Assembly (NCBI RefSeq): GCF_029223525.1
Contig: NZ_JARHTQ010000002.1
Coordinates: forward strand, 186,001-250,000
DNA length: 64,000 nt
Direction of reading: 5' to 3'
DNA from: Streptantibioticus ferralitis
GTDB lineage: Bacteria; Actinomycetota; Actinomycetes; Streptomycetales; Streptomycetaceae
Shown: positions 1,299-21,389 of the stretch, piece by piece
Numbering within the stretch: position 1 is the stretch's first letter
Layout: each line of letters begins with the position of its first letter
Notes under the pieces: model-generated
What the model was told of the DNA's origin: nothing
Database searches by the model: none
Seen by the model: the letters and a program-made list of their open reading frames with translations, nothing else
Position numbers and translations under genes: made by a program

Positions 1299-1398
1299 TC
1301 GGAGGGTGTCTTGGATTCTGTGAAATTGGATTCCGTGAAAGCGGATGTGGCCGAATTAGGTGGCGGAACTTCCGTCACTGCTGAAGGAGGATCGCGGC

Positions 1399-1830
1399 TT
1401 GGATAGCGAATCGCAGGACCGTGTGTACGCAGCTGCCTCGGTCACCGCCTTCGACCACATCAGGCTGGACGTAGCGGACATCGACGTCGCCGAACGATTT
1501 TATGCCGACGCGCTCGGGCTGTCTAGCGTCGTGCGCTACGATCTGGCCGATCGCGTCATCCTGCAGATGGCGCCGGACGGCATACCAGCGGGTATAGAAC
1601 TATGGCAGGAACGAGATCTCGTGCCGAACCCGCATCCTACTCACCACGTCGCGTTTCGCGTCGCCGACGTTCCGGCATTGGTAGAACACATTCGCGCGCT
1701 CGGTTACCGAGTGGTCACCGAGCCATACCGAATCGAGCAAGAGACGGTGGCGTTCGTGGCCGACCCGGATCGCCACACCATCGAACTCAACGACTTCCTG
1801 GGACGCCCGACAGCAGGAGTACCGGCATGA
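1399..1830 (+). CDS. VOC superfamily (glyoxalase/bleomycin-resistance type) protein
   Basis: This is a single VOC domain of 143 residues. The pattern is typical: FDHIRLDV followed by AERFYADALGL, then THHVAFRVAD, and HTIELNDF at the end. These give the His/Glu positions that usually bind a divalent metal. I chose the TTG at 1399 because a strong GGAGG lies at 1386-1390; an ATG at 1360 in the same frame has no ribosome site. The gene overlaps the next one by ATGA, so it is probably translationally coupled to the GmhA-HldE fusion. Its role may be a sugar-processing step or self-resistance; neither is shown by the sequence. Confidence 0.8.
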   Translation: MDSESQDRVYAAASVTAFDHIRLDVADIDVAERFYADALGLSSVVRYDLADRVILQMAPDGIPAGIELWQERDLVPNPHPTHHVAFRVADVPALVEHIRALGYRVVTEPYRIEQETVAFVADPDRHTIELNDFLGRPTAGVPA

Positions 1831-3926
1831 CGGCCGACACCTCGACCGCTACGGACTCCCTGAACCAGCTCACCACAGCCCTGAGCGAGATAGACCTGCC
1901 CCGGGTCGCGGACTGGGGATCACGGCTGGCTCAGTTACGCAGCAACGGTCAGCGTCTGCTGGTAGCCGGCAATGGCGGGTCCGCAGCGCAAGCCCAACAC
2001 CTGACGGCCGAGCTGGTGGGTCGATTCCAGACGGAACGCCCTCCGATGTCCGCGTTAGCGCTGCACGCCGAGACGTCTTCGGTCACCGCAATCAGCAACG
2101 ACTACGGTTACGAGCACGTCTTCGCCCGGCAAGTCCGGGCACACGCGCGTCCAGGCGACACTGTGCTGCTCATGTCCGGCTCCGGTCGCAGCCCCAACGT
2201 GTTGCGCGCTGCGGAGGCCGCGCGCGAGGTCGGCGCGGTGACCTGGGCGCTGACGGGACCAGCACCCAACCCGTTGGCGACGCTGGTGGACGAAGCGGTG
2301 ACCGTACCGGCGCGGGCGGTATCCACGGTGCAGGAATGCCACCTCGTGGTCATCCACCTGATGTGTGCCGGCATGGACGCCGCCGTCGCTGCCATGGACG
2401 CCACCGCCACGGACGCCGTCGGTTCCGCCCCGTCCGTGCCGCCACCTTTGTCCACCTCGTCACCGGAGCCGGTGAGGGAACGCCAGCCGGCTACGGCACG
2501 CGGAGTCCGCCCGAACCTGGTGGTGGTCGGCGACGCGTTCGTCGACCACGACCACCTTGGCCGTGTGGAGCGGGTCGCATCCGACGAGCCGGCCCTGGTC
2601 GTGTCCGGTGGCACCACACACATGCGCCCCGGTGGTGCCGCCCTGGCCGCTGTACTGAGCGCGAGACGGGGCTACCCGGTCACCCTGGTCACCGCGCTCG
2701 GCCAGGACGCGGTCGGCGACCGGCTGCGCACGCTGCTGGACGAAGCGCGAGTCGGGGTGGTCGATCTCGGGCTGGACGGCCCGACCGCGGTGAAAACGCG
2801 GATCCGCGCCGCCGGGCGCACCCTGATGATGCTGGACGAGCACGACGTCTGCCCGCCCGTTGGGCGGGAGGGCGAAACGGCATTGGCTGCGGCACGGCGC
2901 GCGTTGATGGCAGCCGGCGGCGTCCTGGTGTCCGACTACGGTCGAGGCGTCGCCGCGTATACCGACCTGCGTGCCGCACTGGCTGAGGCTGCCCGGCGGT
3001 CTCCGTTGGTCTGGGACCCGCATCCGCGCGGCGCGGTTCCGGTCCCCCATACGGCTGTCGTGACGCCGAACAGCCGAGAAGCTCGGGTGATCGCCTCCCT
3101 CACGGGCAGCGACACGTTCTCAGATGACATCGAAGCGGCACGTGCGGTATGGCGCGCGTGGGGGCCGGTCCAGGTGGCGCTCACCCGGCACGAGCATGGC
3201 GCTGTCCTGCTCGCCGACGCGGATCTGCCGCCGCTGGTCGTGCCCACGAAGGTTGCCGCAGGACGGAAGGCCGACCCCTGCGGTGCCGGCGACTTCTTCG
3301 CCGGTCACCTCGCCACCATGTTGGCCTGCGGCCAGCTACCCAGCGAGGCGGTGGCATCGGCGGTGTGGGCAGCGTCGGCGTACGTCGCGGCGGGTGGTCC
3401 CAGGTCCTTAGACTTCCCGCCCGACGACGGCTCACCGATGACCGGGCTCTCGGGCGCCGGGCCCGCGGCGGCCGCGCACGGAGCGATCGAGCTCGCCGAT
3501 GCGGTCCGTGCGAGGGGCGGTACCGTGGTCGCTGCTGGCGGGTGTTTCGACCTCTTGCACGTCGGGCATATCCGGCTGCTCGAACAGGCGCGCCAACTGG
3601 GTGATTGCCTGATCGTCTGCCTGAACAGCGACGACTCGTTGTCCCGGCTGAAAGGCCCGTCGCGCCCGATCGTACCGGCGGCACAACGCGCTCTCGTGCT
3701 CGAAGCACTCGCTTCCGTGGACGCCGTTCTGGTGTTTTACGAGGACACCCCCGAAGCGGCCATACGCGCGCTGCGACCCGCGATCTGGGTCAAGGGTGGC
3801 GACTACTCGGGAATGGAAATTCCCGAGAACGAGCTGGTCAGCTCCCTGGGCGGACGAACCGTGGTCGTACCTTTCGTCGCCGGCTGGTCGACGTCGTCGC
3901 TGATCGAGTCGGCACGGACACCGTGA
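1827..3926 (+). CDS. Trifunctional GmhA-HldE fusion: sedoheptulose-7-P isomerase / heptose-7-P kinase / heptose-1-P adenylyltransferase
   Basis: The 699-residue protein has three domains. Residues 1-195 are a SIS domain with GNGGSAAQAQH near residues 48-58 (GmhA type). Residues about 230-530 are a PfkB kinase with the CGAGDFF motif and catalytic Asp489. Residues about 560-699 are a cytidylyltransferase-fold domain with GCFDLLHVGH (His578/His581) and a VKGGDY motif. In known pathways GmhA makes heptose 7-phosphate, the HldE kinase adds the 1-phosphate, and the HldE transferase makes ADP-heptose after GmhB removes the 7-phosphate. All the motifs inspected are intact. ADP as the nucleotide is inferred from HldE and is not proven. 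The gene starts by ATGA overlap with the VOC gene and ends overlapping an hldD stub. Confidence 0.92.
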   Translation: MTADTSTATDSLNQLTTALSEIDLPRVADWGSRLAQLRSNGQRLLVAGNGGSAAQAQHLTAELVGRFQTERPPMSALALHAETSSVTAISNDYGYEHVFARQVRAHARPGDTVLLMSGSGRSPNVLRAAEAAREVGAVTWALTGPAPNPLATLVDEAVTVPARAVSTVQECHLVVIHLMCAGMDAAVAAMDATATDAVGSAPSVPPPLSTSSPEPVRERQPATARGVRPNLVVVGDAFVDHDHLGRVERVASDEPALVVSGGTTHMRPGGAALAAVLSARRGYPVTLVTALGQDAVGDRLRTLLDEARVGVVDLGLDGPTAVKTRIRAAGRTLMMLDEHDVCPPVGREGETALAAARRALMAAGGVLVSDYGRGVAAYTDLRAALAEAARRSPLVWDPHPRGAVPVPHTAVVTPNSREARVIASLTGSDTFSDDIEAARAVWRAWGPVQVALTRHEHGAVLLADADLPPLVVPTKVAAGRKADPCGAGDFFAGHLATMLACGQLPSEAVASAVWAASAYVAAGGPRSLDFPPDDGSPMTGLSGAGPAAAAHGAIELADAVRARGGTVVAAGGCFDLLHVGHIRLLEQARQLGDCLIVCLNSDDSLSRLKGPSRPIVPAAQRALVLEALASVDAVLVFYEDTPEAAIRALRPAIWVKGGDYSGMEIPENELVSSLGGRTVVVPFVAGWSTSSLIESARTP

Positions 3927-4057
3927 TGAGACAACAGAGCGTGCTGGTCACGGGAGCAGCCGGATTCACCGGGAGACGTATGGCGCGGGGCCTTTCTGGA
4001 CGCCGAGTACCGGGTCACACGGTGGACTTCACCACGTCACCAACAAAACTATCCTGA
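3926..4057 (+). pseudogene. hldD-like epimerase stub (frameshifted and truncated)
   Basis: The ATG at 3926 overlaps the stop of the GmhA-HldE gene and opens with SVLVTGAAGFTGRR, the NAD-binding start of an HldD-like epimerase. It matches the intact gene at 15082 (VLVTGAAGFIGRH). After MAR the frame breaks: an extra G in the GGGG run at 3987-3990 moves the continuation AFLDAEYRVT into another frame. Homology then stops near 4020, leaving about 35 of some 320 codons. Position and overlap mirror the intact hldE'-hldD junction at 15082. Confidence 0.85.
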
Positions 4058-4120
4058 AAGCGCGTCAGTCGGGGCGCGGAACAAGCCGTTCGATGGAATT
4101 TCCGAAGGGATGGAGATCAC

Positions 4121-4687
4121 GTGAGTATTGATACGGTCGTGGTGAGCAAGGATAAGCTGGACATGCTCATGCCTCTGATCGTCGAGCAGCAGTATGACTG
4201 CGGAAAAGAGGTCGACCTCGCCACCACCCGCACCTTCTTCGAGGGCATCGTCGACAATGAGGCGAGCTTCCAGATCATGGCGGCAGAAGACGACGTCGCT
4301 GTGGGCTTCGTGATGGTCGATCCCATTCCGAACCTCCAGTTCGCCGATAAGGTGGCGTATGTGCACGACGTCTTTGTGACCGAGTCCCTTCGTGGTGTCC
4401 GGGGCATCGGAGCAATCCTGATGGTTGCGGGGTTCGCGGAGGCGATGCGGCGCGGCTATGAGTTCGCCGAAGGCGAGACCGACCCCGACAACCGTCCCGC
4501 GCGGAAACTCTACGAGCGCATGGCGAAGAAATTGGGAATCGGCTGCAAGGAGGTGGCCTCGGTGCGTTACCTGGTGGACCTTCGTCCCGGCATCGAGCGC
4601 GCGCGCCGCGAGCCAGAGTACCTGGACCTACTCGCTACCCCCCAGCTACTCAGCCGTCAGAGTGCTCGACCGGGAGCCGATAGTTAG
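4121..4687 (+). CDS. GNAT-family N-acetyltransferase
   Basis: A 188-residue protein with a GTG start preceded by a purine-rich GGGATGGAG. The acetyl-CoA loop is visible as RGVRGIGAILM, preceded by the beta-strand VHDVFVTESL. The C-terminal half carries a typical motif-B stretch ending PARKLYERM. It probably N- or O-acylates a biosynthetic intermediate. The natural candidate is the amino group installed by the DegT aminotransferase encoded at 7318, but substrate cannot be read from sequence. It follows the hldD stub by 63 bases and precedes the GT9 gene. Confidence 0.8.
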   Translation: MSIDTVVVSKDKLDMLMPLIVEQQYDCGKEVDLATTRTFFEGIVDNEASFQIMAAEDDVAVGFVMVDPIPNLQFADKVAYVHDVFVTESLRGVRGIGAILMVAGFAEAMRRGYEFAEGETDPDNRPARKLYERMAKKLGIGCKEVASVRYLVDLRPGIERARREPEYLDLLATPQLLSRQSARPGADS

Positions 4688-4709
4688 ACGCTGACCTAGA
4701 AGGGCGAGT

Positions 4710-5735
4710 ATGCGTACTGCAATGGTCGTGATAAACGAAGGCGTGGGTAACGGGATCATTGTGGCGCCACTACTGGCGGCGCTCGAGCGATGTTATCCGG
4801 GATGGCGCTACTTCATGGCACCGAACATTGCGCTCGACGCTGAATGGGTGCGTTCGGCGGTCGGCATACATGGTGCTTCCGGGACGTTCCCGGCGCTGTG
4901 GCGGCGGTTCTTACCGGCGGACCGGGAGGCACTGTGGAACTTTATCGATCGCACTGGGGTGGAACTGGTCGTAAACCTCAGAATGGAGTTCGCCGAAGAG
5001 GACGGAAACTACTTCGAATTCCGGGCGGAGGCGACGAAAAGGGGAGTCGAGTGCTGGGATCTGCACGAATTGGGCGGGCGGCCGCAGCGGCTGCCCTTCG
5101 GTGAACAGGCCGCCAATCTCCTGCGCGCGCACAACGTCCCCGTCGAGCTGAATCGCCCGGCCTGGCTCGCCGACCGACGGCGACCACGTCCGGGCGTGGT
5201 CGGTTGCTACGTCGGTGCCAGTGCCGCGGTCAAACGCTGGCCGCTGGGTGACTGGTCGACTCTGATCTCGCATCTGGGCGACCGGCGACTGATCGTCGAG
5301 GTCGCGGTCGGCCTGGGAGCGGACGAGCAGGCATTGGCACATCGGCTGTCGTCGGTGCCGGCCGTCGCCGACACGGTGTTCCTGCACTCTCTGGAAGCTC
5401 TCCGCGACTGGATCGCCGGGCTGGACGTGCTGGTCAGCAACGACACGCTGGCCGTACACCTGGCGGCCGCACTGGGTTGCCCGGTAGTAACGCTGTACCT
5501 GGCGACCGACGGTGACATCTGGTCACCGGCGGCGGCCCCTGATGTCTCGCGGGCCGTGCAGAGCGCTATCGCGCTGTCCTGTTCCTACATGAAGCCGAAC
5601 GGCACCTGCCGGCGCTACTACGTCGGCTGTCCGGCTCCGTGCGCGGCCGGTGTGCGCCCGGCTGATGTGCTGATCGAACTGGACCAGCTGGAATGGAGTG
5701 GGCGGCAAGCCAGTCACCAGGAGGTGGTCAAATGA
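4710..5735 (+). CDS. GT9-family heptosyltransferase-like glycosyltransferase
   Basis: A 341-residue GT-B protein. The donor-site signatures of ADP-heptose transferases (GT9, WaaC/WaaF/WaaQ type) are clear: KRWPLGDWSTL in the middle and VSNDTLAVHLAAALGCPVVTLY near residue 250. The N-terminus (VINEGVGNGIIVAPLL) resembles the GxGD/N start of the family. GT9 enzymes normally build lipopolysaccharide inner core. A Gram-positive has none, so here it probably moves the heptose made by the neighbouring genes onto a small molecule or cell-surface acceptor. Its stop overlaps the start of the next gene (ATGA). Confidence 0.88.
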   Translation: MRTAMVVINEGVGNGIIVAPLLAALERCYPGWRYFMAPNIALDAEWVRSAVGIHGASGTFPALWRRFLPADREALWNFIDRTGVELVVNLRMEFAEEDGNYFEFRAEATKRGVECWDLHELGGRPQRLPFGEQAANLLRAHNVPVELNRPAWLADRRRPRPGVVGCYVGASAAVKRWPLGDWSTLISHLGDRRLIVEVAVGLGADEQALAHRLSSVPAVADTVFLHSLEALRDWIAGLDVLVSNDTLAVHLAAALGCPVVTLYLATDGDIWSPAAAPDVSRAVQSAIALSCSYMKPNGTCRRYYVGCPAPCAAGVRPADVLIELDQLEWSGRQASHQEVVK

Positions 5736-6814
5736 CCCGCCGGCGGGCGATCGCGGTGCTCGGTGGCCGGCCCGGCAATGCGGGAGCCGACGTCCTCCGG
5801 CTGGCTGAGATGATCGGCGAGGAGCTCGCCAAACGTGGCTACGGCGTGGTGAGCGGCGGCGAGGGCGGCGTAGCGGCCGCAGCCAACAAGGGCTGCCAGG
5901 CCGTCGGCGGCGACACACTCGCGTTGTTGAAGTGGAACCGTCTGTCCGACGCCGAGGATGGGACCACCTGGGCCCTGCCCACGTCGATGGACCTGGCCCG
6001 GAGCAACATCCTCAACTGGTGCGGTGACGGCATGATCGCGTTCGAAGGCCGCTACGGCACGCTCACCGAGATCGGTCTCGCCCTGGACACGGGACGCCCT
6101 CTGTTGGTCTTGGGTAACCACCCGTTTCTCACCGCAGAGGCGTTCGCGGCGCCCACTTGCCGCGTCGTGCCGGACCCTCGGCCGGAGGACGCCTCCGAGC
6201 TGGTCGACCTGCTGGAAACGCTGATCGCGGCCGGCGAGCAGGCATCGGTACGGCCCGGTGCCGCCGTCGTCGAGGACGACCAGGTCGACGAGAGCGGTAT
6301 CGGTTTGCGACGTGCGATTCCGGGGGACCTGGAGCTGTTCCGCCGAGCGTTCGGCGACGCCGACGTGCTGGCGTGGCGAGCGCTGGAGCCGACCGACGGG
6401 GTGCTCAGCCGATTCCAGCACGAACGCTGCCTGGTGATGCTCGAGCGGAATCGTCCGGTCGGCTTCCTGGAGTACCGCACGGAGGCTGATCCGGAGCTCG
6501 ACCATATCCAGGTCGAGGCGGTGGCGGTGGCCGACGCGGCCGACCGGGGCCGGTCGATCGGGACACGAGCGTTGAGGTTGTTCGCCGGGTCGGTCTTCGC
6601 CGCCGGCCGGCACCGCATCACCGCGGCGCCCCATCCCGACAACAGGGCTGCCGTGCGGTGCCTGGATAAGGTGGGTTTCCAGCAGGTCGGCCTGATGAGG
6701 GCGTACGAACGCCACCGCGGTACGTGGCGGGACGCGCTGCTGATGGATCTGGTCCCGAGCGACCTGGCCGGCAGGTCGTCCAGGCCACCGGAGATCGAGG
6801 TCGGGTACGGATAA
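5732..6814 (+). CDS. Fusion of a LOG/TIGR00725-like Rossmann domain and a GNAT acetyltransferase
   Basis: Residues 1-165 form a LOG-like domain: VLGGRPGNAGAD, GVVSGGEGG and, in place of the classic PGGxGTxxE, FEGRYGTLTEI. Residues about 190-345 are a GNAT domain (GLRRAIPGDLELF to NRAAVRCLDKVGFQQVG). The protein has 360 residues and starts at the ATG overlapping the GT9 stop; 13 extra in-frame codons upstream are not needed. LOG relatives hydrolyse nucleoside monophosphates to a free base, while TIGR00725 proteins are uncharacterised. A coupled base-release and acylation enzyme is possible but unproven. The gene ends at an IS remnant that interrupts the operon. Confidence 0.8.
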   Translation: MTRRRAIAVLGGRPGNAGADVLRLAEMIGEELAKRGYGVVSGGEGGVAAAANKGCQAVGGDTLALLKWNRLSDAEDGTTWALPTSMDLARSNILNWCGDGMIAFEGRYGTLTEIGLALDTGRPLLVLGNHPFLTAEAFAAPTCRVVPDPRPEDASELVDLLETLIAAGEQASVRPGAAVVEDDQVDESGIGLRRAIPGDLELFRRAFGDADVLAWRALEPTDGVLSRFQHERCLVMLERNRPVGFLEYRTEADPELDHIQVEAVAVADAADRGRSIGTRALRLFAGSVFAAGRHRITAAPHPDNRAAVRCLDKVGFQQVGLMRAYERHRGTWRDALLMDLVPSDLAGRSSRPPEIEVGYG

Positions 6815-7290
6815 CTCTCTCGACCACCCAGCGGTGGTGGCTGGTGATCGGGTTGGTCTTCGATCCGGCCTTGTCGCGATCGGTCGGATTCGGTCCGTCA
6901 GTGGCCCCCTTGTACAGCCCTCACGCTGACGGAGTCGACTGCGCACCGGGACCGGTCCAGTTCCCCGCGGGCGCCGAGTTCGTCGAGGATGACACGGTGC
7001 GGCCTGGCCCAGACCCGGGCTTTGCTCCACTGGGCGAAGCCCGGTAGACCGTGGGTCAGGCCGGGCCGAACACGGGCGGGAGCTGCCGCCAGGTGCAGCC
7101 CGACGTAGCCACGAAGATGATCGCGGCCAACGATTCACGGTCACCGGCCCGTCGTCGGCCCCTGCCCTGCGGTCGTATGACCTCCGTGCGAGGCACCACC
7201 CGCCGAAACAACTCCCACAACTCGTCCGGCATCAACCGCTCAACCAGATCAAGCGCGAACCGACCAACGACGCAGCAAGCCAAAAGAAGC
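6812..7290 (-). mobile_element. Degenerate IS5-family transposase remnant
   Basis: On the minus strand the N-terminal part of an IS5-type transposase can be read: DLVERLMPDELWELFRRV, then SLAAIIFVATSGCTWRQLPPVFGP. A Trp codon has become TGA at 7056-7058. Beyond it, TVYR, AQWSKAR and VILDELGARGELD continue in shifted frames, and HRWVVER from the transposase C-terminus appears near 6815-6835, so a large internal part is missing. It is inactive. No terminal inverted repeats or target duplication were recognised. Confidence 0.8.
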
Positions 7291-7317
7291 GATGTATGAG
7301 ACGAACGGAGGATCGCC

Positions 7318-8565
7318 ATGGCCGGACCAGGAGTTTCCCGCATCGGCCCGGAAGAGGAGGCCGAGGTTCTGGACGTGTTACGTGAGCGAGAGCTGAGCCG
7401 GTACCGCTTCGACGACCACGACGGGTCTGCGCGGTTGTCGAAGGTTGCGCGGTTCGAGCAGGAGTTCCGCACCTTGACCGGTGCGCGCCACTGCCTGGGC
7501 ATGAACAGCTGCACCAGCGCTTTGTTTGCCGGTCTGCTCGCGGCAGGGGTCGGTCCGGGCGACGAGGTGATCGTGCCGGGCTACACCTTTATCGCCCCGA
7601 TCGCCGCAGTTGCGCATACGGGAGCCGAGCCGGTGCTCGCTGAGATCGACGAGAGCCTCCTGCTCGATCCGGCGGACGTGGCTGCGAGAATCACCTCGCG
7701 CACGAAGGCGGTGATCGCCGTGCACATGCTCGGAGCGCCGTGCGACCTCGACGACCTCGACGCCCTCACACGTGAGCACGGGCTGCTGCTCGTGGAGGAC
7801 TGCGCGCAGGCCGGTGGTGGCACGTACCACGGCCAACACCTCGGGACTTTCGGCCGATTCGGCGCGTTCAGTCTCAACGTCTTCAAGACCTTCACAGCGG
7901 GCGACGGTGGCGTCCTGCTCACCGAGGACGACGATCTGTACGAGACGGCGTTCGCCCTGCACGATCACGGCGCCGCGCCGTTGCGGTCGGGCGTCACCGA
8001 GGGGCCCCCGCTGTTCGGTCTGAATCTACGGATGCACGAGCTGACCGGCGCGGTCGCGCTTGCCCAGGTCCGCAAGCTGCCGGGCACCCTGCGGACGTTG
8101 CGAGCCAACCGGGACAAGTTCGCGGACGCGATCGGCGACCTGCCCGGGGTGACGCGTCGCCCACTGCACGACCCGGACGGCGACTGCGCCACGGTGCTCG
8201 CGTACACGTTCGCGTCCGCGGCCACGGCCGGCGAGGTGGCAACCCGACTGGGCACGATCACCCTGAGCCAGTCGGGCAAACACAGTTACGCCAACATGTC
8301 CCAACTACAACCGGATCGACTGATCTCGACGGCGTCCGGGACGCGCAGGCCGGATCGCGCCGCCCTGCGTCGGTCCTATCCGCCGGGCAGCCTGCCGCGC
8401 ACGGACGACCTGCTCAACCGCAGCATCGCGTTGAGCGTCGGGGTGGTCGACTCCTACCTCGGCAGCGGAGTAGGCATCGACGTGACCGCCGATGACGACG
8501 CGATCGAGGCAGCGGCACGGCTGTTCAAGAACACAGTTGAGGACGTTGTCAAGGCAGCGTCATGA
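7318..8565 (+). CDS. DegT/DnrJ/EryC1/StrS-family PLP aminotransferase
   Basis: A 415-residue sugar aminotransferase. It shows NSCTSALFAGLLA, PGYTFIAP, VEDCAQAGGG and the PLP-lysine segment SLNVFKTFTAGDGG, giving Lys190 as the Schiff-base residue. This family converts keto-sugars or keto-cyclitols to amines using glutamate or glutamine. The keto substrate could come from one of the two GMC oxidoreductases or the SDR in the cluster. Start: ATG with GGAGG eight bases upstream. Its promoter region overlaps the IS remnant, so this may be the first gene of a second transcript. ATGA overlap with the next small gene. Confidence 0.93.
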   Translation: MAGPGVSRIGPEEEAEVLDVLRERELSRYRFDDHDGSARLSKVARFEQEFRTLTGARHCLGMNSCTSALFAGLLAAGVGPGDEVIVPGYTFIAPIAAVAHTGAEPVLAEIDESLLLDPADVAARITSRTKAVIAVHMLGAPCDLDDLDALTREHGLLLVEDCAQAGGGTYHGQHLGTFGRFGAFSLNVFKTFTAGDGGVLLTEDDDLYETAFALHDHGAAPLRSGVTEGPPLFGLNLRMHELTGAVALAQVRKLPGTLRTLRANRDKFADAIGDLPGVTRRPLHDPDGDCATVLAYTFASAATAGEVATRLGTITLSQSGKHSYANMSQLQPDRLISTASGTRRPDRAALRRSYPPGSLPRTDDLLNRSIALSVGVVDSYLGSGVGIDVTADDDAIEAAARLFKNTVEDVVKAAS

Positions 8566-8726
8566 GTGTGGGAAGGGATACCGACGCCGAATTCGAGGCG
8601 GCCGCGACGACCTTGCTGCCGACCGTCGCACTGCGTGGCTGGGCCGTCGCTACGGAAGCGGAGGCTGACGCGGCTCTGCCGGCCTGCGTCGAGCAGGCGT
8701 TGCGGTGGAAGGAACGCACCGGATGA
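8562..8726 (+). CDS. Small 54-residue protein in the cluster
   Basis: A short reading frame fits exactly between two genes, overlapping the aminotransferase stop (ATGA at 8562) and the next start (ATGA at 8723). The double overlap and GC3-rich codons argue that it is translated. The protein starts MSVGRDTD, is rich in Ala and Glu, and ends ACVEQALRWKERTG. It has no signal peptide or membrane segment and is not recognised. It might be a small subunit or chaperone of a neighbour, or mainly a translational coupler. Confidence 0.6.
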   Translation: MSVGRDTDAEFEAAATTLLPTVALRGWAVATEAEADAALPACVEQALRWKERTG

Positions 8727-9718: not shown

Positions 9719-9739
9719 CCCCCCGTCGCTCGAGGGCCC

Positions 9740-10172: not shown

Positions 10173-10237
10173 TGCGCACCGCCCACGCGGTCGCCTCACT
10201 GCCGGATGACAACACTCAGACTACAAACAACTGTGGG

Positions 10238-11683: not shown

Positions 11684-11719
11684 CAAGCACCAGAAGCAGC
11701 AAGCAGAGAGGCAGCCCCG

Positions 11720-12595
11720 ATGCAAGGAATGTCGATCGCGGTTTCCGGCACCGAATTCACGGACACCGACGGCGTGGACGGCCTGATCGAAATGGCCAGG
11801 TCCGCTCAATGCGACGCGGTGGAATTCTGGTATCCGAAGAACGCCCTGCGGGACGGTGTCGACGCCACACTCCGCAAGCTGGACCGTGCCGGGCTGCGGA
11901 TAGCCTGCGTATCAACCCCCAGCCAGCTCTACGGTTCCGGCGAAGCGGACGCCGTCTCGCTTCTCCACGAGGCGATCACGATAGCGGCACGGACCGGCGG
12001 CAACCGGGTGAACACCTACTTCGGTCACGCGCCGGTGGTCGATGACCAGAGGGCAATCGCGGCCTACGCCGGCGCGCTGGCACCGGTCCTCGACCACGCT
12101 GCGGCCGAAGACGTGGTGGTCGTGTTGGAGAACGAGTTCGACGCGTTCGGATGGGACCCGGTGGCGTCCGACGTCAGCAGGCGGCCGGTAGCGTTGGCGG
12201 CGCTGTTCGCCCGGGTTGACTCGCCCTGGTTCGGCTTGAACTTCGATGCTGCAAACTTCCTCTGCGCGGCGGTCGCCCCGGCCCGCGACGCGTTGCCCCT
12301 GCTCCTGCCGTGGGTGCGCTATGCCCACGTGAAGGACGTGTGTCGAGCGTCGGCGGAAACCCCGCCCGATGGCTGGACCCGGTACACCGATCACGGCAGG
12401 GCCTACGACACGGCGCCTCTCGGCACCGGGGAACTGGACTGGCCGGCGATCATCGAAAGCCTGGCGAGCGCGGACTACGACGGGTACCTCACGCTCGAAC
12501 CACACTGCGCGCGGTCGATTCTCCTGGCCGAGACGGCCGGGGCAGCCGACTACCTGCGCGACGTGATCAACGTTCACGCGCCGTCCCACCGGTGA
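11720..12595 (+). CDS. Sugar phosphate isomerase/epimerase (xylose-isomerase-like TIM barrel)
   Basis: A 291-residue AP-endonuclease-2-fold protein. Metal-site segments typical of the family are seen: VVLENEFD, FGLNFDAANF, WVRYAHVKDV and YLTLEPH. The family includes isomerases, epimerases and dehydratases of sugars, inositols and keto-sugars. Following a GMC oxidase by 36 bases, it may act on the 3- or 2-keto sugar that oxidase forms. That pairing is known in C-glycoside deglycosylation, but no recognisable small CarC-type subunit is present. GTGA overlap couples it to the next gene. Confidence 0.82.
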   Translation: MQGMSIAVSGTEFTDTDGVDGLIEMARSAQCDAVEFWYPKNALRDGVDATLRKLDRAGLRIACVSTPSQLYGSGEADAVSLLHEAITIAARTGGNRVNTYFGHAPVVDDQRAIAAYAGALAPVLDHAAAEDVVVVLENEFDAFGWDPVASDVSRRPVALAALFARVDSPWFGLNFDAANFLCAAVAPARDALPLLLPWVRYAHVKDVCRASAETPPDGWTRYTDHGRAYDTAPLGTGELDWPAIIESLASADYDGYLTLEPHCARSILLAETAGAADYLRDVINVHAPSHR

Positions 12596-13053
12596 TCCAG
12601 GAGAATCTTCTCACTACGACTGATTGGCAACCGCGCGTGCTCTCCGACATCGAGGCATCCAGACCCCTTGCCCACACCCTGGGCCAACAGCTGCTTACCC
12701 GGTTGCAGCCACGAGGTTCGGTCGCCTCCACCGCCGACGACATGCGGCTGCCCACCCGAGAGGCGGACACCGAGGTCGTGACGGTCGCCTTCGAGACCGG
12801 TCGTCAGTGGCTGGAGCGCTCTGAGAGCGACCCGCACACCTACCTGTCGGAGCGGAAGAGGTTTGGGGCGGTCGTCGTAGCCGCCCAGCACTGCTCCGGC
12901 GGTACTGCGCTCACCTCGGAGGAGCCGGCCCAGTTCGACGAGGAGTACATCGCCTTGCTCAACCGCCGGCACCGTGAACCCGCCCCCGGCACACGGCACA
13001 TCTGCGTGCTGTTCCATGCCTTCCCCACCCCCGACCCGACGGAGGCGTCGTGA
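12592..13053 (+). CDS. Conserved-looking unknown 153-residue protein
   Basis: GTG start overlaps the TIM-barrel gene stop (GTGA), and the stop overlaps the MFS gene start (GTGA), so it sits tightly inside the operon. The protein is soluble, has no signal peptide, and has an acidic/aromatic central part (AFETGRQWLERSESDPHTYL) and a C-terminal RHICVLFHAFPTPDP. I do not recognise a family. Its place beside a TIM-barrel enzyme suggests a partner subunit, but no motif supports that. Confidence 0.7.
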   Translation: MIQENLLTTTDWQPRVLSDIEASRPLAHTLGQQLLTRLQPRGSVASTADDMRLPTREADTEVVTVAFETGRQWLERSESDPHTYLSERKRFGAVVVAAQHCSGGTALTSEEPAQFDEEYIALLNRRHREPAPGTRHICVLFHAFPTPDPTEAS

Positions 13054-14288
13054 CCTCCGCGGCCGCCGAGCCGTCGCTGTGGCGCAACCGCGACTTTGTC
13101 ACGCTCTGGAGCGGCCAGGTCGTCTCCACCCTCGGCGCCCGGGTCAGCGCGACAGCGATGCCGCTGCTCGTACTGGCCACGACCGGCTCGCCCGCCGACG
13201 CGGGCCTTGTCGGAGCCGCCGGCACTTTGCCCTTTCTCGTCGCCTACTTACCGGCCGGACCACTGGTGGACCGGTACAACCGTCACCGGATCCTGCTGAC
13301 GAGCGAGATCCTGGCCGGCCTCGCTCTGGCCACCGTTCCGATCGCCCTGTGGCTGCGACTGCTGACGGTCGCTCAGCTCATTGTCGTCGCGTTCGTCCAG
13401 GGGCTGTGCTTCGTGTTCTTCAGCCTGGCGGAGACGGCCGCCCTTCCCAAAATCGTGCCGGCCGTCCTGCTACCTGCGGCCCTGGCCCAGAACGAGGCCC
13501 GCAGCCGCGGCGCTGCCCTGGCCGGTGGGCCGCTCGGCGGCCTGCTCTTCGGAATCGACCGCGCCCTGCCCTTCCTGGCCGATGCGCTCTCCTACGCCGC
13601 CGCCTCCATCGCGCTGCTGTTCCTCCGCAAGGACCTGCAGAACACGACGACCGCGCCGGCCGAGCCGCTGTGGCAGGCGACCGTGGCAGGACTGCGCTGG
13701 ATCTGGCGCCACCCGCTCATCCGCACCGCGATCCTGCTGATCACCGCCAGCAACCTGGTCTTCCAGGCGCTCGTCCTGACGATCGTCGTCCTCGCCCAAC
13801 GCCACGGTGCCACCCCCGGCGCCATCGGCACAATGCTCGGCATCTACGCCGGTGGCGGGCTCATCGGCGCACTGGTTGCCACCAGGGCCCACCGATACTT
13901 CACCCCCAAAATGGTCATCATCGGGGTCAACTGGATCTGGGCCGCGCTCTTGCCGCTCTTCCTGCTCACCACCAACCCCCTGCACATCGGGGCGATCGGC
14001 GCAGCCACCGCGTTCATCGGACCAGTATGGAACGTCGTGATCATGAGCTACACCGCACTCCTGGTCCCCAACGAGATCCTGGGCCGGGTCACCAGTGCGG
14101 CGATGACCCTCGCCTGGGGCGTCATGCCCATCGGCTCCCTCGGCGCCGGGTTGTTGCTGACCACCGCAGGCCCCACCGGTGCCGTCCTCGCCCTCTCCGC
14201 CATCATGCTCGTCACAGCGGTCGGCGCGACCATCAGCCCGGCCGTTCGCCGCGCCCCACCGCTGACCGCACCCGAGGATGCGATCTGA
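13050..14288 (+). CDS. MFS transporter, probable exporter
   Basis: A 412-residue membrane protein with about 12 hydrophobic segments. It starts LWRNRDFVTLWSGQVVSTLG, typical of the MFS_3 (EntS-like) exporter group, and has the loop motif DRYNRHRILL between helices 2 and 3. It most likely exports the cluster product and may give self-resistance. GTG start overlaps the previous stop. A 122-base gap follows before the broken gmhA-hldE copy, which has its own ribosome site. Confidence 0.88.
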   Translation: MTSAAAEPSLWRNRDFVTLWSGQVVSTLGARVSATAMPLLVLATTGSPADAGLVGAAGTLPFLVAYLPAGPLVDRYNRHRILLTSEILAGLALATVPIALWLRLLTVAQLIVVAFVQGLCFVFFSLAETAALPKIVPAVLLPAALAQNEARSRGAALAGGPLGGLLFGIDRALPFLADALSYAAASIALLFLRKDLQNTTTAPAEPLWQATVAGLRWIWRHPLIRTAILLITASNLVFQALVLTIVVLAQRHGATPGAIGTMLGIYAGGGLIGALVATRAHRYFTPKMVIIGVNWIWAALLPLFLLTTNPLHIGAIGAATAFIGPVWNVVIMSYTALLVPNEILGRVTSAAMTLAWGVMPIGSLGAGLLLTTAGPTGAVLALSAIMLVTAVGATISPAVRRAPPLTAPEDAI

Positions 14289-14410
14289 GGGCGCACTCTG
14301 TCCCTGCCCAACGACGTCACCAACGTGGTCTTGAGCGAAGTGGGGTCAACGCCCGGCCAGTTGATCGTCCCTTACCCGCGTTTGACCGTCCCGCCAAGGA
14401 GTTGACCGTG

Positions 14411-15085
14411 ATGACGCCAGGTCGCGAGCACGTCCAGGCACTGGCCACCGTCCTGCCCGCGCTGGACACCGATCGTCTCCATGCCTGGGCGCGCATCCTG
14501 GCCGACCGGCTCCCGGCAGGCCGGCGGTTGCCGGTCGCGGGCAACGGAAGGAGCGCGGCCGAGGCCCGACACCTGACCTCCGAAATGGGCGGCCGGTTCC
14601 ACAGCGAACGCCCGCCGCCGTCGGCCATCGCCCAGCACGCGGATTCCTCCTCGGGGACCGCCATCGCCAACGACCACGGCACCGAGGAGGTCTTCGCCCG
14701 CCAGGTGGGCGCCCACGGTCGCCCGGCGACGTCCTGCTGCTCTCGACCTCCGGGGCCGACCCGAAAGTTCTCAGCGACGACTCCGGTCCGCCGACTCAAG
14801 GGACCAGACCGGCCCGTGGTTGCAGACCACGAACGCGCCGCGCTAACAGAAGCACTGGACTGCGTCGACGGTGTCCTCGTCTTCGCTGAGGACACCCCCG
14901 AACGCGTCCTGGCCGAACTGCGCCCCGATATCCGGGTCAAGGGCGATGACCACGCGGGCCGGCGGATCTCCGAGGCCGGCCTGGCGGAAGGCCGTGGCGG
15001 TGAGGCCATCGTCGTTCCGTACCTGAACGGGCACTTCACGAACCCCTTCGTCATCCGACTCACCCAGCAGGCAGGCACACCATGA
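14411..15085 (+). pseudogene. Gutted second GmhA-HldE copy: kinase lost, two compensating frameshifts
   Basis: The frame is open for 224 codons but is not a functional enzyme. The N-terminal part matches a SIS domain (RLPVAGNGRSAAEARHLTSE). After HGRP a G is missing near 14725, so VLLLSTSGADPKVLS can be read only in another frame. Sequence then jumps straight to SDDS and, after an extra G near 14784, RRLKGPDRPVV. That is the middle of the nucleotidyltransferase domain. The whole PfkB kinase and the HxGH motif are deleted. The tail (VFAEDTPERVLAELRPD, VKGDDH) matches the intact copy at 1827. AAGGAG precedes ATG 14411, and translation still couples to hldD by ATGA. Confidence 0.88.
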
Positions 15086-16053
15086 ACCCGCGCGTGCTCG
15101 TCACAGGTGCGGCCGGCTTCATCGGCCGGCACACCACCGCGGCCTTCCACCAGGCCGGTTACCAGGTCACTGCACTCGACCTACGCTCTGCCCCCGGGCA
15201 CCTCGCCGAGTCAGCGCGCTGGCAGCGCATGCCCTTCACCTCCCGGGCTCTCCTGGACGAGATTGCATCCGGCCGGTACCAGACTGTCGTCCACCAGGCC
15301 GGGATCAGCGACACCCGTGCGGTGGCAGGACCGGAACTGGACGACACCAACACCCACGGCGTATTGCGGCTGGCCGAGGCCTGCCGCACCGGGGGTGCCC
15401 GCCTGATCTACGCCTCCTCGCACTCGGTTTACGGCACCCTGCACCACCGAAAGCCGATCCCCGAGCGCGCCGACACCGACCTCACACGTTGCTCAGGTCC
15501 GCTGAACCCGTACGCGGCATCCAAGCTCGCCCTCGACCAGCAGATGCGCTCCTGGTACCGCACGGGCCTGGACTGGGTAGGTCTGCGCTATACCAACGTG
15601 TTCGGCCCTGATGAGACAGACAAAGGCCCCATGGCCTCGATCCTGTCCCAGCTCCTGCGCTCGGCCGCCGGTACCGGCGAAGTACGCTTGTTCGACGACT
15701 CTCTGACCGCGGCCCGCGACTATATCCCCGTCGAGATCGTCGCCGCCACGATCCTCCAGCTCACCCGACAGCACGTCCCTGCCGCGGTTTACAACCTCGG
15801 CGCCGGCTTCGCCGTTTCCTTCGCCGAGATCACCCAGTGGTGCGCCCGCCTGCACCGCGAGACCGCCGGTGAGGCACCGCTGCGGGTGACGTTGGTACCG
15901 AACGCAGTCGCAGCCGCCTACCAGTACTACACGTGCGCGGAGATGACCGCCCTGGACACCGTGCTACGCGGCCGACCCACAGTCTCCTTCCAGGGTGTGG
16001 AAACCCAAGCTGCCGAACTGTTCCACGCCTTCGGCACCCGTGAAGCAGCATGA
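15082..16053 (+). CDS. NAD-dependent ADP-heptose-6-epimerase-like (HldD-type) SDR
   Basis: A 323-residue extended SDR. It has the NAD loop VLVTGAAGFIGRH, the serine strand YASSHSVYG, the catalytic pair in NPYAASK, and RYTNVFGP and ARDYIPVE further on, all as in HldD and related epimerases. HldD converts ADP-D-glycero- to ADP-L-glycero-manno-heptose. A different epimerase or 4,6-type reaction is possible since only the fold is certain. The intact gene overlaps the broken gmhA-hldE copy upstream and gmhB downstream. A stub of a second hldD lies at 3926. Confidence 0.85.
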   Translation: MNPRVLVTGAAGFIGRHTTAAFHQAGYQVTALDLRSAPGHLAESARWQRMPFTSRALLDEIASGRYQTVVHQAGISDTRAVAGPELDDTNTHGVLRLAEACRTGGARLIYASSHSVYGTLHHRKPIPERADTDLTRCSGPLNPYAASKLALDQQMRSWYRTGLDWVGLRYTNVFGPDETDKGPMASILSQLLRSAAGTGEVRLFDDSLTAARDYIPVEIVAATILQLTRQHVPAAVYNLGAGFAVSFAEITQWCARLHRETAGEAPLRVTLVPNAVAAAYQYYTCAEMTALDTVLRGRPTVSFQGVETQAAELFHAFGTREAA

Positions 16054-16814
16054 CCGACCCGGCGCGCACCAGCGCCCTTCGGCTGCCGGCGGTGTTCCTC
16101 GACCGCGATGGCACCCTCACCGAACCCCGGCACTACCCGTCCCGCCCCGAGGACCTGGTACTCCAGGCGGGCATCGGGCCACCGCTACTCGCCCTCCAGC
16201 ACGCCGGATTCGCCCTGGTCGTGGTCACCAACCAGAGCGGCCTGGCCCGCGGCCTGGTCGACGAGGCCGCCATCGCACCGATGCACCAGCGGCTGCGGGA
16301 ACTCCTGGCCCACCACCAGGTCCAGCTGGACGGGATCTACCTGTGCCCGCACCATCCAGGCGGTACCGTGCCGCGGTTCTCCATCGCCTGTTCGTGTCGC
16401 AAGCCCGCCCCTGGAATGCTCCACCAGGCCGCCGGCGACCTCGGCCGTGACCTGTCCTCCTCGTGGATGGTCGGCGACTCCGTCTGCGACATCGACGCCG
16501 GCCACCGCGCCGGAACCCGCACCGCCCTCGTCGGCCCACAGCCCCGCGCTGATGTCGCACCGACCCTGTACCGGACCACGACCGCGCAGGCACTCACCGC
16601 CATCGCGGCCTGCGAAATCCCCCTGTACGAGAGTGACGAGCTGGGGAGCAATGATCTCGGGGCGAAGTGGGCGGCCGTTCGAGAGTCGGTGCTTGGTGAA
16701 GCTCACCAAAACGATCGGCCAGGCCTTGCGCGTCCCGTTCACGCCGTGGATGCTCACCCGGGACCGGACGATCGCCGAACTTGGCCTGAAGATCGACGCG
16801 CTGACGGCGGCTGA
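16050..16814 (+). CDS. GmhB-like heptose-1,7-bisphosphate 7-phosphatase (HAD-IIIA), with odd C-terminal tail
   Basis: The 254-residue protein has the HAD motif FLDRDGTLTE (Asp18/Asp20), VVTNQSGLARG, a zinc loop (CPHHPGG then ACSCRKP) and the motif WMVGDSVCDIDAG. It would remove the 7-phosphate before nucleotide transfer. GmhB proteins are usually about 180-190 residues. Here homology ends near AACEI, and about 60 further residues are low-complexity Asp/Arg/His/Pro-rich. Another frame of that tail reads more protein-like (TPWMLTRDRTIAELGLKID), so a frameshift or fusion may have altered the 3' end. ATGA overlap with hldD. Confidence 0.88.
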   Translation: MTDPARTSALRLPAVFLDRDGTLTEPRHYPSRPEDLVLQAGIGPPLLALQHAGFALVVVTNQSGLARGLVDEAAIAPMHQRLRELLAHHQVQLDGIYLCPHHPGGTVPRFSIACSCRKPAPGMLHQAAGDLGRDLSSSWMVGDSVCDIDAGHRAGTRTALVGPQPRADVAPTLYRTTTAQALTAIAACEIPLYESDELGSNDLGAKWAAVRESVLGEAHQNDRPGLARPVHAVDAHPGPDDRRTWPEDRRADGG

Positions 16815-16891
16815 GGAACCGCCCTCAGGGTGAGTGCGACCCGATCCGTAGACCGCATACACGGACCCGACGAACTCAATGGAGAACCATC

Positions 16892-18475
16892 GTGTCGACA
16901 GCTGATCTCTCCCCAGGTCTTGCCGAATGGCAGTGGCCCGCTACGGTTCCAGGCACCGATGACCCGCACTGTCGGGTAGTGATCGCCGGAGGTGGGCTCG
17001 CCGGCCTCGAAGTGGCCCGGCAACTGGCCGCTCTCGGTGTCGACGACGTCCTGGTCATCGAAGCTGGACCCGCGCAGGATCTGTTACACATCAACTCCGC
17101 GCACAAGCACGATCAAGCGCTGCGCACCTTCCTCGATCCCGCCAGCGACCCACACTTCCAGCGTTGTTGGACATCGGAATCCGCCCCGCACTACGCCGTC
17201 AACGCCGGTCTGCGCAAGCGCCTCGGTGGACGTTCACTGTACTGGTACGGCGCGTCACTGCCGGTTGAGGACTGGGCGTTGGCCGACTGGCCGGAGTCGA
17301 TCGTGACGGACCTGCGCGGCTCGTGGCGGGGCGGCGGACCGCTCTACGAACAGGTCGCGGCAGACCTCCGAATAGATCCGAACCGACTCGACTCGCAGCA
17401 ACCGGTTCTGAAGCTAGGAGGATTCCGTCTCGTCCGCACCCCGCAGGCCGAAACCCGGTTCGGTGACGATGGCCGCTGGTACGCCTACTCCCCGCTGGAC
17501 CATTGGCGACACCCGGTAACGGGCGCCGTGCTGGACGGCCCGCGTGGCATCCGGTTCCTGTGTGGCACCGACGTCCTCTCGGTTGACATCAAGGACGGGC
17601 GAGCCTGCGGCGTCCTCGTCCGGGAAACCGGCCCGAACGGCAGGGCCCGCCGGATTTCCGCGGACTCGGTGGTCCTGGCCGCCGGGACCATCGAGAACAG
17701 CAGGCTGGCCATCCAGGCGCTGTGCGCGATCGACCCCTGCCGCCCGCCCCGGCTGGACGGGCTTACCGACCACATCGTCCAGGGCTTCTTCGTGCGGGTG
17801 CGCGACGCCGACGACGACAGGGCATCCCATGGCTTGTCGGACGCCGCATCCGGCTCGTACGTGACCGCGTGCGAGGACGTCGTCCGGTCGAACCTGTTCA
17901 TCACGGTCGAACGGCCCGAACCCGGCGTCCTTCTGTTCGATGTGCGGCTCACCGGGGAGCAGATGCCCGGAACTGGTAGCCACGTTACGTGCGAGCCGAC
18001 CGGCGAGTACCCGTGGCGCACAACTGTCACGGCGGATCTGGCCCCGGCCGACCGGGACGTCGTCGGACGCCAGCGCCAGGTGCTGGACAAGGTTTGGCGC
18101 CAACTGGCCGCCGAGTTCGGTCTCACCGCCACGCCCCTGGCTTTCGACGACTTCGACCACCCGGTTCGCACCAACGCGTTCGTGCTGCCGGAGTCGATCG
18201 GCGCGGAGGCGTCCGAAGGGCCCTTCACCTGGTCAAGCCTGCTGGGTACCGAGGACCATGAGGGGTGCACGTTGCCGCTGGGTGACGTACTTGACAACCG
18301 TCACGTGTTCGCCTCCATCCCTTGCCTCTACGCCTGCGGGCCAGCGACCTTTCCCCGCATGGGCGCCGCCAACCCCTCGCTCACCACCCTGGCTCTCGCG
18401 CGGCGACTAGCACACTTCCTGGCCGCCACTCATGGCGAGCAATCACACCGAGCAACATCGGAGGCAGACGCGTGA
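16892..18475 (+). CDS. GMC / pyranose-oxidase-like FAD oxidoreductase (copy 2)
   Basis: A 527-residue paralogue of the gene at 10238. FAD motif: VVIAGGGLAGLEVARQL and LVIEAGP. Near the C-terminus are DHEGCT (His456) and FPRMGAANPSLTTLAL (Asn494), the His/Asn pair of the pyranose-oxidase group. It has an extra N-terminal leader and a 25-residue C-terminal extension compared with copy 1. Two such oxidases suggest oxidation at two different carbons or on two different sugars. The final TGA overlaps the ATG of the SDR (TGATG), and a GGAGG at 18460 serves that next gene. Confidence 0.86.
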   Translation: MSTADLSPGLAEWQWPATVPGTDDPHCRVVIAGGGLAGLEVARQLAALGVDDVLVIEAGPAQDLLHINSAHKHDQALRTFLDPASDPHFQRCWTSESAPHYAVNAGLRKRLGGRSLYWYGASLPVEDWALADWPESIVTDLRGSWRGGGPLYEQVAADLRIDPNRLDSQQPVLKLGGFRLVRTPQAETRFGDDGRWYAYSPLDHWRHPVTGAVLDGPRGIRFLCGTDVLSVDIKDGRACGVLVRETGPNGRARRISADSVVLAAGTIENSRLAIQALCAIDPCRPPRLDGLTDHIVQGFFVRVRDADDDRASHGLSDAASGSYVTACEDVVRSNLFITVERPEPGVLLFDVRLTGEQMPGTGSHVTCEPTGEYPWRTTVTADLAPADRDVVGRQRQVLDKVWRQLAAEFGLTATPLAFDDFDHPVRTNAFVLPESIGAEASEGPFTWSSLLGTEDHEGCTLPLGDVLDNRHVFASIPCLYACGPATFPRMGAANPSLTTLALARRLAHFLAATHGEQSHRATSEADA

Positions 18476-19200
18476 TGCTCACGGACAAGCGGGTCCTGGT
18501 CACCGGAGCGTCGAAGGACATCGGCCGGGGCATCGCGCTCGACCTGGTCAGGCGCGGAGCAACCGTCGTCGGCACGTACAACACCGGCGCGGCCGACGCA
18601 GAGGAACTCCTTGTCCTCGGCGTCAAGGAGATGGTCCACCTCAATCACTTGGACCGGGAGGAATCAGCGGCCACGCTCGGCCGACTGGCCGCTACCGGCC
18701 CCTTCCACGGGCTCGTGAACAACGCCGCGGTGATTGAGTTCACTTCCTGGGAGTCCAGTTTGGACTCCTGGGACAGGGTGCTGGACGTCAACCTCCGGGG
18801 TCCACTGGCCACCACGATCGCGCTTGCCCCGACCATGCCGCCCGGCAGTTCAATCGTCAATATCTCCAGCACAGCGGGGACGATGGGCTCATTCGATTCA
18901 CTCGCCTACTCGGCGAGTAAGGCCGCGCTCACCAACCTGACGAAGAGCCTCGCCAACGTGCTCGGGCCATCCGGGATCCGCGTCAACGCCGTCTCGCCCT
19001 GCTATATCGACGTCGATGCACCCGCGGAATCAGCCGGATTGACTCCGTTGAGGCGCAACGGGTTCCCAGATGACATCGCCTCGGTCGTGGCGTTCCTGCT
19101 CACCGGCGGCGCTCGCTTTGTCACAGGCACGGAAATCACCGTGGACGGTGGCTACACGGCTGCGGATGCCCTCGCGAAACGCGCGTATGACGCGGGCTGA
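18475..19200 (+). CDS. Classical short-chain dehydrogenase/reductase
   Basis: A 241-residue SDR with cofactor loop VTGASKDIGRG, structural NNAAV, catalytic Ser in NISSTAG and Tyr/Lys in YSASKAAL, ending in the usual TVDGGYTA. It may reduce a keto group made by one of the GMC oxidases, giving net inversion of a hydroxyl, or oxidise an alcohol. It is the last gene of the heptose cluster. The start is ATG 18475, set by the overlap with the GMC gene; longer in-frame upstream sequence lies inside that gene. Confidence 0.9.
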   Translation: MLTDKRVLVTGASKDIGRGIALDLVRRGATVVGTYNTGAADAEELLVLGVKEMVHLNHLDREESAATLGRLAATGPFHGLVNNAAVIEFTSWESSLDSWDRVLDVNLRGPLATTIALAPTMPPGSSIVNISSTAGTMGSFDSLAYSASKAALTNLTKSLANVLGPSGIRVNAVSPCYIDVDAPAESAGLTPLRRNGFPDDIASVVAFLLTGGARFVTGTEITVDGGYTAADALAKRAYDAG

Positions 19201-21333: not shown

Positions 21334-21389
21334 AACCGGTGAGCTTACCGGATTCCTTCCCGCACCCTGCGCCCGATAGCGGAGATCTC

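Follow-up and report, generated by a model that had tools for sequence, protein, structure and literature searches.

What do the heptose genes in one part of the Streptantibioticus ferralitis genome make? The genes in question lie on the plus strand between positions 1360 and 19200 of a 64,000-nt stretch of DNA (the window) from a 613 kb contig of the 8.8 Mb genome. An earlier account, called here the sequence-only reading, had placed a heptose natural-product cluster at this locus, predicted an amino, acylated, oxidised heptoside, and stated that the gene set matched none that it could name. Our analysis supports heptose secondary metabolism but, contrary to the last statement, finds a fit, in the kinds of genes and in their arrangement, to the septacidin cluster (sepA-sepL) as reportedly described. 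The genes of the cluster are intact, and it most probably represents a further locus of the septacidin/spicamycin type, whose product class is an acylated amino-heptose joined to adenine, of the antitumour kind; we put the probability of this identity, which rests on gene content and order, at about 0.85.

Gene families were assigned by Pfam and NCBIfam profile searches of the window's proteins (Table 1). These searches bore out the gene list of the sequence-only reading (GmhA-HldE, an HldD-type NAD-epimerase, GmhB, GT9, DegT, three acyltransferase-type genes, a TIM barrel, an SDR, two GMC/FAD oxidoreductases and an MFS exporter), but that list had omitted a VOC/glyoxalase-fold protein, whose gene begins the cluster at 1360, and a LOG domain; it is by these two that the pathway can be recognised. 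Twelve core genes (1360-16814) are followed by a GMC gene and the SDR gene. The two GMC enzymes, earlier taken as a pair, are not alike: one (GMC1) belongs to the constant core, and the other (GMC2) travels with the SDR.

The septacidin cluster was reportedly described by Tang et al. in PNAS in 2018. In that scheme SepD and SepH are said to be acyltransferases, SepI to oxidise C4', SepG to be the aminotransferase, and SepJ and SepA (the latter of the VOC fold) to epimerise C5 and C3; SepB, SepC and SepL are reported only as jointly making ADP-heptose. Read in order from A to L, the VOC gene presumably corresponds to A, GmhA-HldE, HldD and GmhB to B, C and L, the GNAT gene to D, DegT to G, the FemAB-type gene to H, the core GMC to I and the TIM barrel to J. 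On this assumption all nine of these letters fall on fitting gene kinds; GT9 as E and MFS as K are less sure. Compared with the septacidin cluster as reported, the window has an HldD of a second lineage at another place, an extra truncated GmhA-HldE, and a GMC-SDR pair following the core.

A GT9 scan of a species-genome collection, which used short exact patterns and reaches close relatives only, returned seven loci at 83-90% identity to the window's GT9: Streptomyces sp. I05A-00742 (L014), Streptomyces sp. WM6378 (L015), S. violascens (L016), S. klenkii (L017), Actinomadura rubrisoli (L018), Actinacidiphila acididurans (L019) and S. xanthochromogenes (L020). With G667, which came from the family sample, and the window itself there are nine close clusters; G708, G555 and G476 share contig coordinates with L014, L016 and L019 and were counted once. 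Three named genera (Streptomyces, Actinacidiphila and Actinomadura) are represented, and genes other than HldD are 74-94% identical (protein) to those of the window. The order in L015, L016, L018 and L020 is VOC, GmhA-HldE, HldD, GNAT, GT9, LOG-GNAT, DegT, FemAB, GMC, TIM barrel, MFS, GmhB, so that the twelve-gene order fits the presumed sepA-sepL order in four of nine loci; it does not in the window, where HldD has moved. L019 and G667 keep this core order minus the MFS gene, which was not seen in the stretches examined of L017, L019 and G667 and is 87-94% identical in L014, L015, L016, L018 and L020. The cluster is sporadic in its distribution, because its marker genes occur in few genomes: GT9 in 7 of 394 family-sample genomes at 1e-20 (the window's own genome, four close clusters, G562 at 51% and G726 at 35%), LOG-GNAT in 5 of 391 order-sample genomes at 1e-60, and GT9 in the window's own genome only in the class (394) and phylum (396) samples.

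Divergent relatives extend the comparison. By gene, the versions in G562 (L029 2211-14154, L030 1-7359), G800 (L067, L068) and G726 are 43-62%, 44-61% and 33-58% identical; G800 has three VOC matches, including a further partial one at 47%. The G562 cluster, in which no GmhB or first-GNAT match was seen, also has AMP-binding, PP-binding/condensation (nonribosomal peptide synthetase [NRPS]-type), ATP-grasp and Lant_dehydr_N proteins, and is probably a new acylated heptose nucleoside cluster. A distant version of the core lies on a plasmid of the marine, Gram-negative alphaproteobacterium Roseibium aggregatum (L069, NZ_CP128602.1 29633-54634), with identities of 34% (FemAB), 54% (DegT), 33% (GT9), 41% (LOG), 41% (TIM barrel), 46% (VOC) and 45% (GMC). 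Its LOG protein stands alone rather than fused to GNAT, and the locus also holds two radical SAM and three phytanoyl-CoA dioxygenase genes. No GmhA-HldE, HldD or GmhB match was found at 1e-4 in the 25 kb examined; because this core occurs there with no heptose-supply gene, it is consistent with a separable heptosyl-adenine module.

The aglycone is predicted to be adenine because the core combines a LOG domain with a GT9 transferase. GT9 is weakly related to lipopolysaccharide (LPS) heptosyltransferase I (2.3e-6 against a solved structure of that enzyme) and would place heptose on N6 of adenine or adenosine monophosphate (AMP); the LOG domain would strip ribose 5-phosphate, either from AMP before transfer or from heptosyl-AMP after it. 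The LOG motif EGRYGTLxE is present in 9 of 9 close clusters (EGRYGTLTE; EGRYGTLSE in L018) and in G562, G800 and Roseibium. A precedent comes from the angustmycin pathway, whose LOG homologue AgmA (54% identity to a rice LOG) has been shown to act as an AMP phosphoribohydrolase and frees adenine for a nucleoside antibiotic; no heptose or GT9 is among the enzymes named in the consulted excerpt of that source (PMC8599513). ADP-heptoses are named as septacidin and spicamycin intermediates in the excerpt of PMC10948575, and the analogue anicemycin consists of adenine, an aminosugar, glycine and a fatty acid, its genes being stated as unknown in 2017 (PMC5256202).

The sugar would come from sedoheptulose 7-phosphate by way of ADP-L-glycero-D-manno-heptose, a route whose GmhA, HldE, GmhB and HldD families are all encoded according to the profile searches. 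GmhA-HldE joins SIS, PfkB and cytidylyltransferase-like domains in a single open reading frame (ORF), and its NCBIfam HldE and gmhA matches fall under the curated cut-offs. It is the best gmhA match in its own genome; two more were found, one being the 14411 copy and one a weak, partial match on a different contig, and all three score below the curated cut-off. Tridomain isomerase/kinase/nucleotidyltransferases are a known class with septacidin as a known use (PMC11573728, excerpt).

Families suited to a C3 epimerase, a C5 epimerase, a 4'-oxidase and an aminotransferase are all encoded, with key residues retained. The VOC His/Glu/His/Glu set, read as a metal site, is kept in four of five divergent VOCs aligned (Ser stands first in one of two from G800). 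The TIM-barrel Glu/Asp/His/Glu set, which we take to be a sugar 3-epimerase metal site, is identical in all five versions aligned (window, G562, G800, G726 and Roseibium); a low-confidence model of this protein (mean predicted local distance difference test [pLDDT] 63.4) matches SCO6571, Art22 and sugar 3-epimerases, a hint as to family only. The DegT motif SLNVFKT, read as the site of the pyridoxal-phosphate lysine, is kept in 9 of 9 clusters. GMC1, which probably starts near 10238 rather than 9794 (judging from homologue starts), belongs to the core in each of the nine close clusters and also in the G562, G800 and Roseibium versions.

We infer the reactions from relatives of these enzymes and from the reported septacidin work, and assign them to genes whose families, conservation, order and co-occurrence were observed. 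GMC1 would create a 4'-ketone, the TIM-barrel enzyme would epimerise C5 and the VOC enzyme C3, DegT would aminate C4', and the GNAT and FemAB-type enzymes would attach acyl groups (glycine and a fatty acid in septacidin); GNAT and PF13480 genes supply acyltransferase families for the two side chains. By our own bookkeeping, a D-manno heptose that undergoes inversion at C5 and C3 and an inverting amination at C4 becomes L-gluco. The amination and acylation foreseen in the sequence-only reading are supported, while its oxidised product is revised: oxidation is predicted to be transient, giving keto intermediates for epimerisation and amination and not a feature of the final product.

Could this copy be decayed and silent? 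Its structure gives some grounds for the idea. In six of the nine clusters first-lineage HldD follows GmhA-HldE; the window, L014 and L017 lack it at this place and have an HldD before GmhB. From about 4054, the window matches the pre-GNAT spacer of clusters with the first-lineage HldD (blastn: L015, L016 and L018). The window's HldD is 89-90% identical to those of L014 and L017 and 43-46% identical to those of the other six. The copy at 14411..15085 (675 bp) joins the GmhA part to the nucleotidyltransferase end with the kinase domain gone, and is 46-58% identical to intact GmhA-HldE copies at its two ends. On our reading of these sequences, a second heptose gene set may have arrived, its HldD taking over while its GmhA-HldE shrank. 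The LOG-GNAT to DegT gap, which holds an insertion sequence (IS) remnant, measures 503 bp in the window; L014 has 159 bp at this place, and the remaining seven clusters have 27-32 bp.

Despite the deleted HldD, the truncated copy and the IS remnant, we consider decay unlikely, for an intact ORF exists for every predicted function. Ratios of nonsynonymous to synonymous substitution rates (dN/dS) for all 14 genes against orthologues, in at most four genomes per gene (L014/L034, L015, L017 and L018), were 0.12-0.48, well below 1; values of 0.50-0.53 arose only when the window's HldD was compared to the other HldD lineage. The complete genes of the cluster remain under purifying selection. The catalytic motifs searched are conserved in nearly all aligned rows, with pattern exceptions in VOC (HHxAF) in L019 and HldD (GxxGFIG) in L016.

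It is also unlikely that the locus makes a different heptose product, with another aglycone, that shares only ADP-heptose and amination genes with septacidin. The GMC2-SDR pair and the LOG-fused GNAT lie outside the septacidin scheme as reported, and the NRPS-type, ATP-grasp and Lant_dehydr_N genes of G562 indicate that the family diversifies; against this, each of the twelve core genes has a counterpart in kind, their order also agrees in four of the nine loci, and the LOG domain points to adenine. Less probable still is a locus that uses ADP-heptose for a polysaccharide or glycoconjugate of the cell surface; the sequence-only reading had named a cell-wall role as an outcome that would refute it. 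GT9, HldE, HldD and GmhA are LPS-type families, and with GmhB they are common to the ADP-heptose pathway and heptosyltransferase I (WaaC) of the LPS inner core; here, however, GmhA and HldE are fused, GT9 is only weakly like heptosyltransferase I, and among the genes annotated in 1360-19200 there is a single glycosyltransferase and no lipid A/core or polymer-assembly gene. The LOG domain, VOC, TIM barrel and acyltransferases, and the patchy presence of GT9 (7 of 394 family-sample genomes), likewise argue against such a role. A hygromycin B-type heptose was set aside as a judgement from known gene sets, no search being made.

Several observations weigh against the septacidin/spicamycin assignment. 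The sep equivalences are presumed, by setting reported functions against gene order, and for SepI and SepJ the fit is one of reaction, the enzyme family being presumed; no host strain of the cluster is known as a producer. The HldD replacement and IS remnant mean that this copy is rearranged. No FemAB or GmhB match was found in G800 at 1e-4, the missing FemAB being the adverse point, and no LOG or FemAB match at 1e-5 in the stretches of G726 examined. The LOG motif EGRYGTLxE deviates from PGGxGTxxE, the form quoted in the excerpt of PMC8599513, although the PF18306 domain itself is clear. Apart from these points, no entry is named as a Sep protein among the listed solved-structure matches of five window proteins, and the literature matches listed, from a search that left out most subscription papers, include neither a gene cluster for spicamycin or anicemycin nor a description of septacidin, spicamycin or anicemycin cluster genes.

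If the core makes a septacidin-type compound, what does the GMC2-SDR pair add? Eight of the nine close clusters have the two genes side by side: in the window and L014 they lie downstream of GmhB, and in L015, L016, L017, L019, L020 and G667 they are divergent and upstream of VOC. In all eight the GMC2 stop and SDR start overlap by one base, which marks the genes as translationally coupled. GMC2 at 84% identity or more occurs in 5 of 394 family-sample genomes, the same five that have GT9 at 85% or more, in a scan that scores few candidates per genome. In the draft assembly of A. rubrisoli GMC2 is undetected, the only match at 1e-20 being its GMC1, and no SDR match reaches 1e-30. In a concatenated tree, whose G562 root is unreliable (support 49), the closest neighbours of A. 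rubrisoli are the window and L014 (supports 82 and 85); because both carry the pair, loss in A. rubrisoli is the simpler reading. Each of the divergent versions (G562, G800 and G726) shows a single GMC match at 1e-40; in G726 some 41 kb separate it from the GT9, and G800 has an SDR match (44% identity) on another contig.

The FAD motif GGGLAG is present in six of six GMC2 aligned, and DHEGCT and ANPS in eight of eight; a C-terminal His/Asn pair is, we assume, the GMC catalytic pair. A low-confidence GMC2 model (mean pLDDT 53.9) best matches C-glycoside oxidase and bacterial pyranose 2-oxidase at 12-18% identity, a hint as to family only, and GMC2 differs from both in its coupling to an SDR. 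A recent origin of GMC2 by copying of GMC1 was rejected, since the tree joins GMC2 with GMCs of G618, G380, G588 and G658 (support 100) and sets GMC1 elsewhere. A GMC about 48-50% identical to GMC2 occurs in four further genomes, each time adjoining DegT genes (L052-L055; G618 is L052 5020-16983). In the one neighbourhood annotated by Pfam, that of G618, phosphatase, APH and RmlA/B/D-type genes are present as well, which makes the set aminocyclitol-like. The position of these relatives beside DegT genes is a possible clue to the origin of GMC2. A GMC on a Streptomyces plasmid, 39% identical to GMC1, adjoins an inosamine-phosphate amidinotransferase. Relatives thus seem to act on hydroxyls of sugars or cyclitols; one literature search found no paper on GMC/SDR epimerisation in aminoglycosides.

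We propose that GMC2 would oxidise, and the SDR re-reduce, one hydroxyl, most simply that at C2'. An oxidase paired with a reductase, the two absent together, fits a two-step epimerisation. C2' is chosen because it is presumably the sole centre that separates the two known product types: the septacidin sugar is presumably L-gluco and the spicamycin sugar its C2' epimer, L-manno, neither structure being confirmed in the literature searched. By our bookkeeping, passage from L-gluco to L-manno takes one further inversion, at C2, which would turn a septacidin-type into a spicamycin-type heptosamine; spicamycin and anicemycin are of the product class predicted here. Against this, the excerpt of PMC9654166 draws no gluco/manno line, on which the proposal depends, and names L-gluco-heptose as a precursor of septacidin, spicamycin and anicemycin alike.

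We give about even odds that the pair does something else, acting on another hydroxyl (C6' or C7'), on the acyl chain or in a resistance or clearance step. Regiochemistry is not readable from sequence, and with a sister clade that adjoins DegT genes (an aminocyclitol-like set in the annotated case) the ancestral oxidase may have served amination; yet a codon-overlapped oxidase and reductase, absent together, have the look expected of a two-enzyme epimerase, and C2' is presumably the only difference between the two sugars. A more speculative combined view, to which we give rather less than even odds, is that GMC2-SDR may be a two-enzyme sugar 2'-epimerase from an aminocyclitol-oxidase lineage and a septacidin/spicamycin switch, that its loss in A. 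rubrisoli would revert the product to the septacidin type, and that the Roseibium plasmid may carry a heptosyl-adenine core perhaps drawing ADP-heptose from elsewhere in the cell.

Several neighbours were considered and left out of the cluster. The ORF at 12595-13053 was not accepted as a gene, having no Pfam match and only short matches in L016 and L018. A P450 gene (20128-21333) and a type III polyketide synthase (PKS) gene (21297-22532) were rejected as members; no match placed the PKS or the ABC genes beyond it beside the close clusters, and weak matches (26-31% identity) lie elsewhere. In G562, about 8 kb separate the heptose cluster from an upstream PKS that is 71% identical to that of the window. 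Both the downstream adjacency and this proximity are probably coincidence. Further along, 30917-34153 encodes a protein with AMP-binding and carrier domains and 37513-38973 a Pyridoxal_deC decarboxylase; this region is possibly a separate cluster.

Table 1. Features of the heptose cluster (window positions)
Feature	Position	Strand	Evidence
VOC/glyoxalase-fold protein, predicted 4'-keto-L-heptose C3 epimerase (SepA-like)	1360..1830	+	PF00903 1.6e-13; first core gene in 9/9 close clusters
Tridomain GmhA-HldE, predicted sedoheptulose-7-P isomerase/heptose-7-P kinase/heptose-1-P nucleotidyltransferase (SepB-like)	1827..3926	+	PF13580, PF00294, PF01467
HldD remnant, 117 bp of gene start	3926..4042	+	blastn 77-82% to HldD start of L015, L016, L018
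GNAT acyltransferase (SepD-like)	4121..4687	+	PF00583 2.6e-13; 74-90% identity in other 8 clusters
GT9 heptosyltransferase, predicted to transfer heptose to N6 of adenine or AMP (SepE-like)	4710..5735	+	PF01075 1.1e-14
LOG/SLOG (AMP phosphoribohydrolase-type) domain fused to GNAT (SepF position)	5693..6814	+	PF18306 1.3e-24, PF00583
IS4/5-family transposase remnant, between LOG-GNAT and DegT	7062..7232	-	PF13340 6.6e-12
DegT/DnrJ/EryC1/StrS aminotransferase, predicted 4'-aminotransferase (SepG-like)	7318..8565	+	PF01041 4.7e-74
FemAB/Acetyltransf_6-type acyltransferase (SepH-like)	8705..9718	+	PF13480 1.3e-25
GMC1, pyranose-oxidase-like FAD oxidase, predicted 4'-OH oxidase (SepI-like)	10238..11683	+	PF05199 2.7e-8; start set by homologues
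Xylose-isomerase-like TIM barrel, predicted metal-dependent C5 epimerase (SepJ-like)	11720..12595	+	PF01261 8e-27
MFS exporter (SepK position)	13050..14288	+	PF07690 1e-26
Second GmhA-HldE copy, internally deleted, 224 aa frame, without kinase	14411..15085	+	PF13580 1.4e-10, PF01467 3.5e-4, no PfkB
HldD-type epimerase, second lineage, probable replacement of deleted HldD (SepC role)	15082..16053	+	PF01370 6.4e-43
GmhB heptose bisphosphate phosphatase (SepL-like)	16050..16814	+	PF13242 8.6e-13; NCBIfam PRK08942 3.9e-42, under its cut-off
GMC2, pyranose-2-oxidase-like FAD oxidase, proposed 2'-OH oxidase of epimerising pair	16892..18475	+	21.6 bits on its own against a cut-off of 24.6
SDR reductase, proposed 2'-keto reductase	18475..19200	+	PF13561 2.1e-48

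KRN5500 is a semi-synthetic spicamycin derivative. It has been in clinical trials (PMC9654166, excerpt). For this class of compound, the LOG domain offers a concrete proposal for the origin of N6-glycosylated adenine. The remaining interest of the locus lies in the GMC2-SDR proposal and in the spread of the heptosyl-adenine core. Nine clusters, of which eight have the pair and one shows none, put the gluco/manno question within reach of a test. Judging by the Roseibium locus, this chemistry appears to extend beyond actinomycetes.

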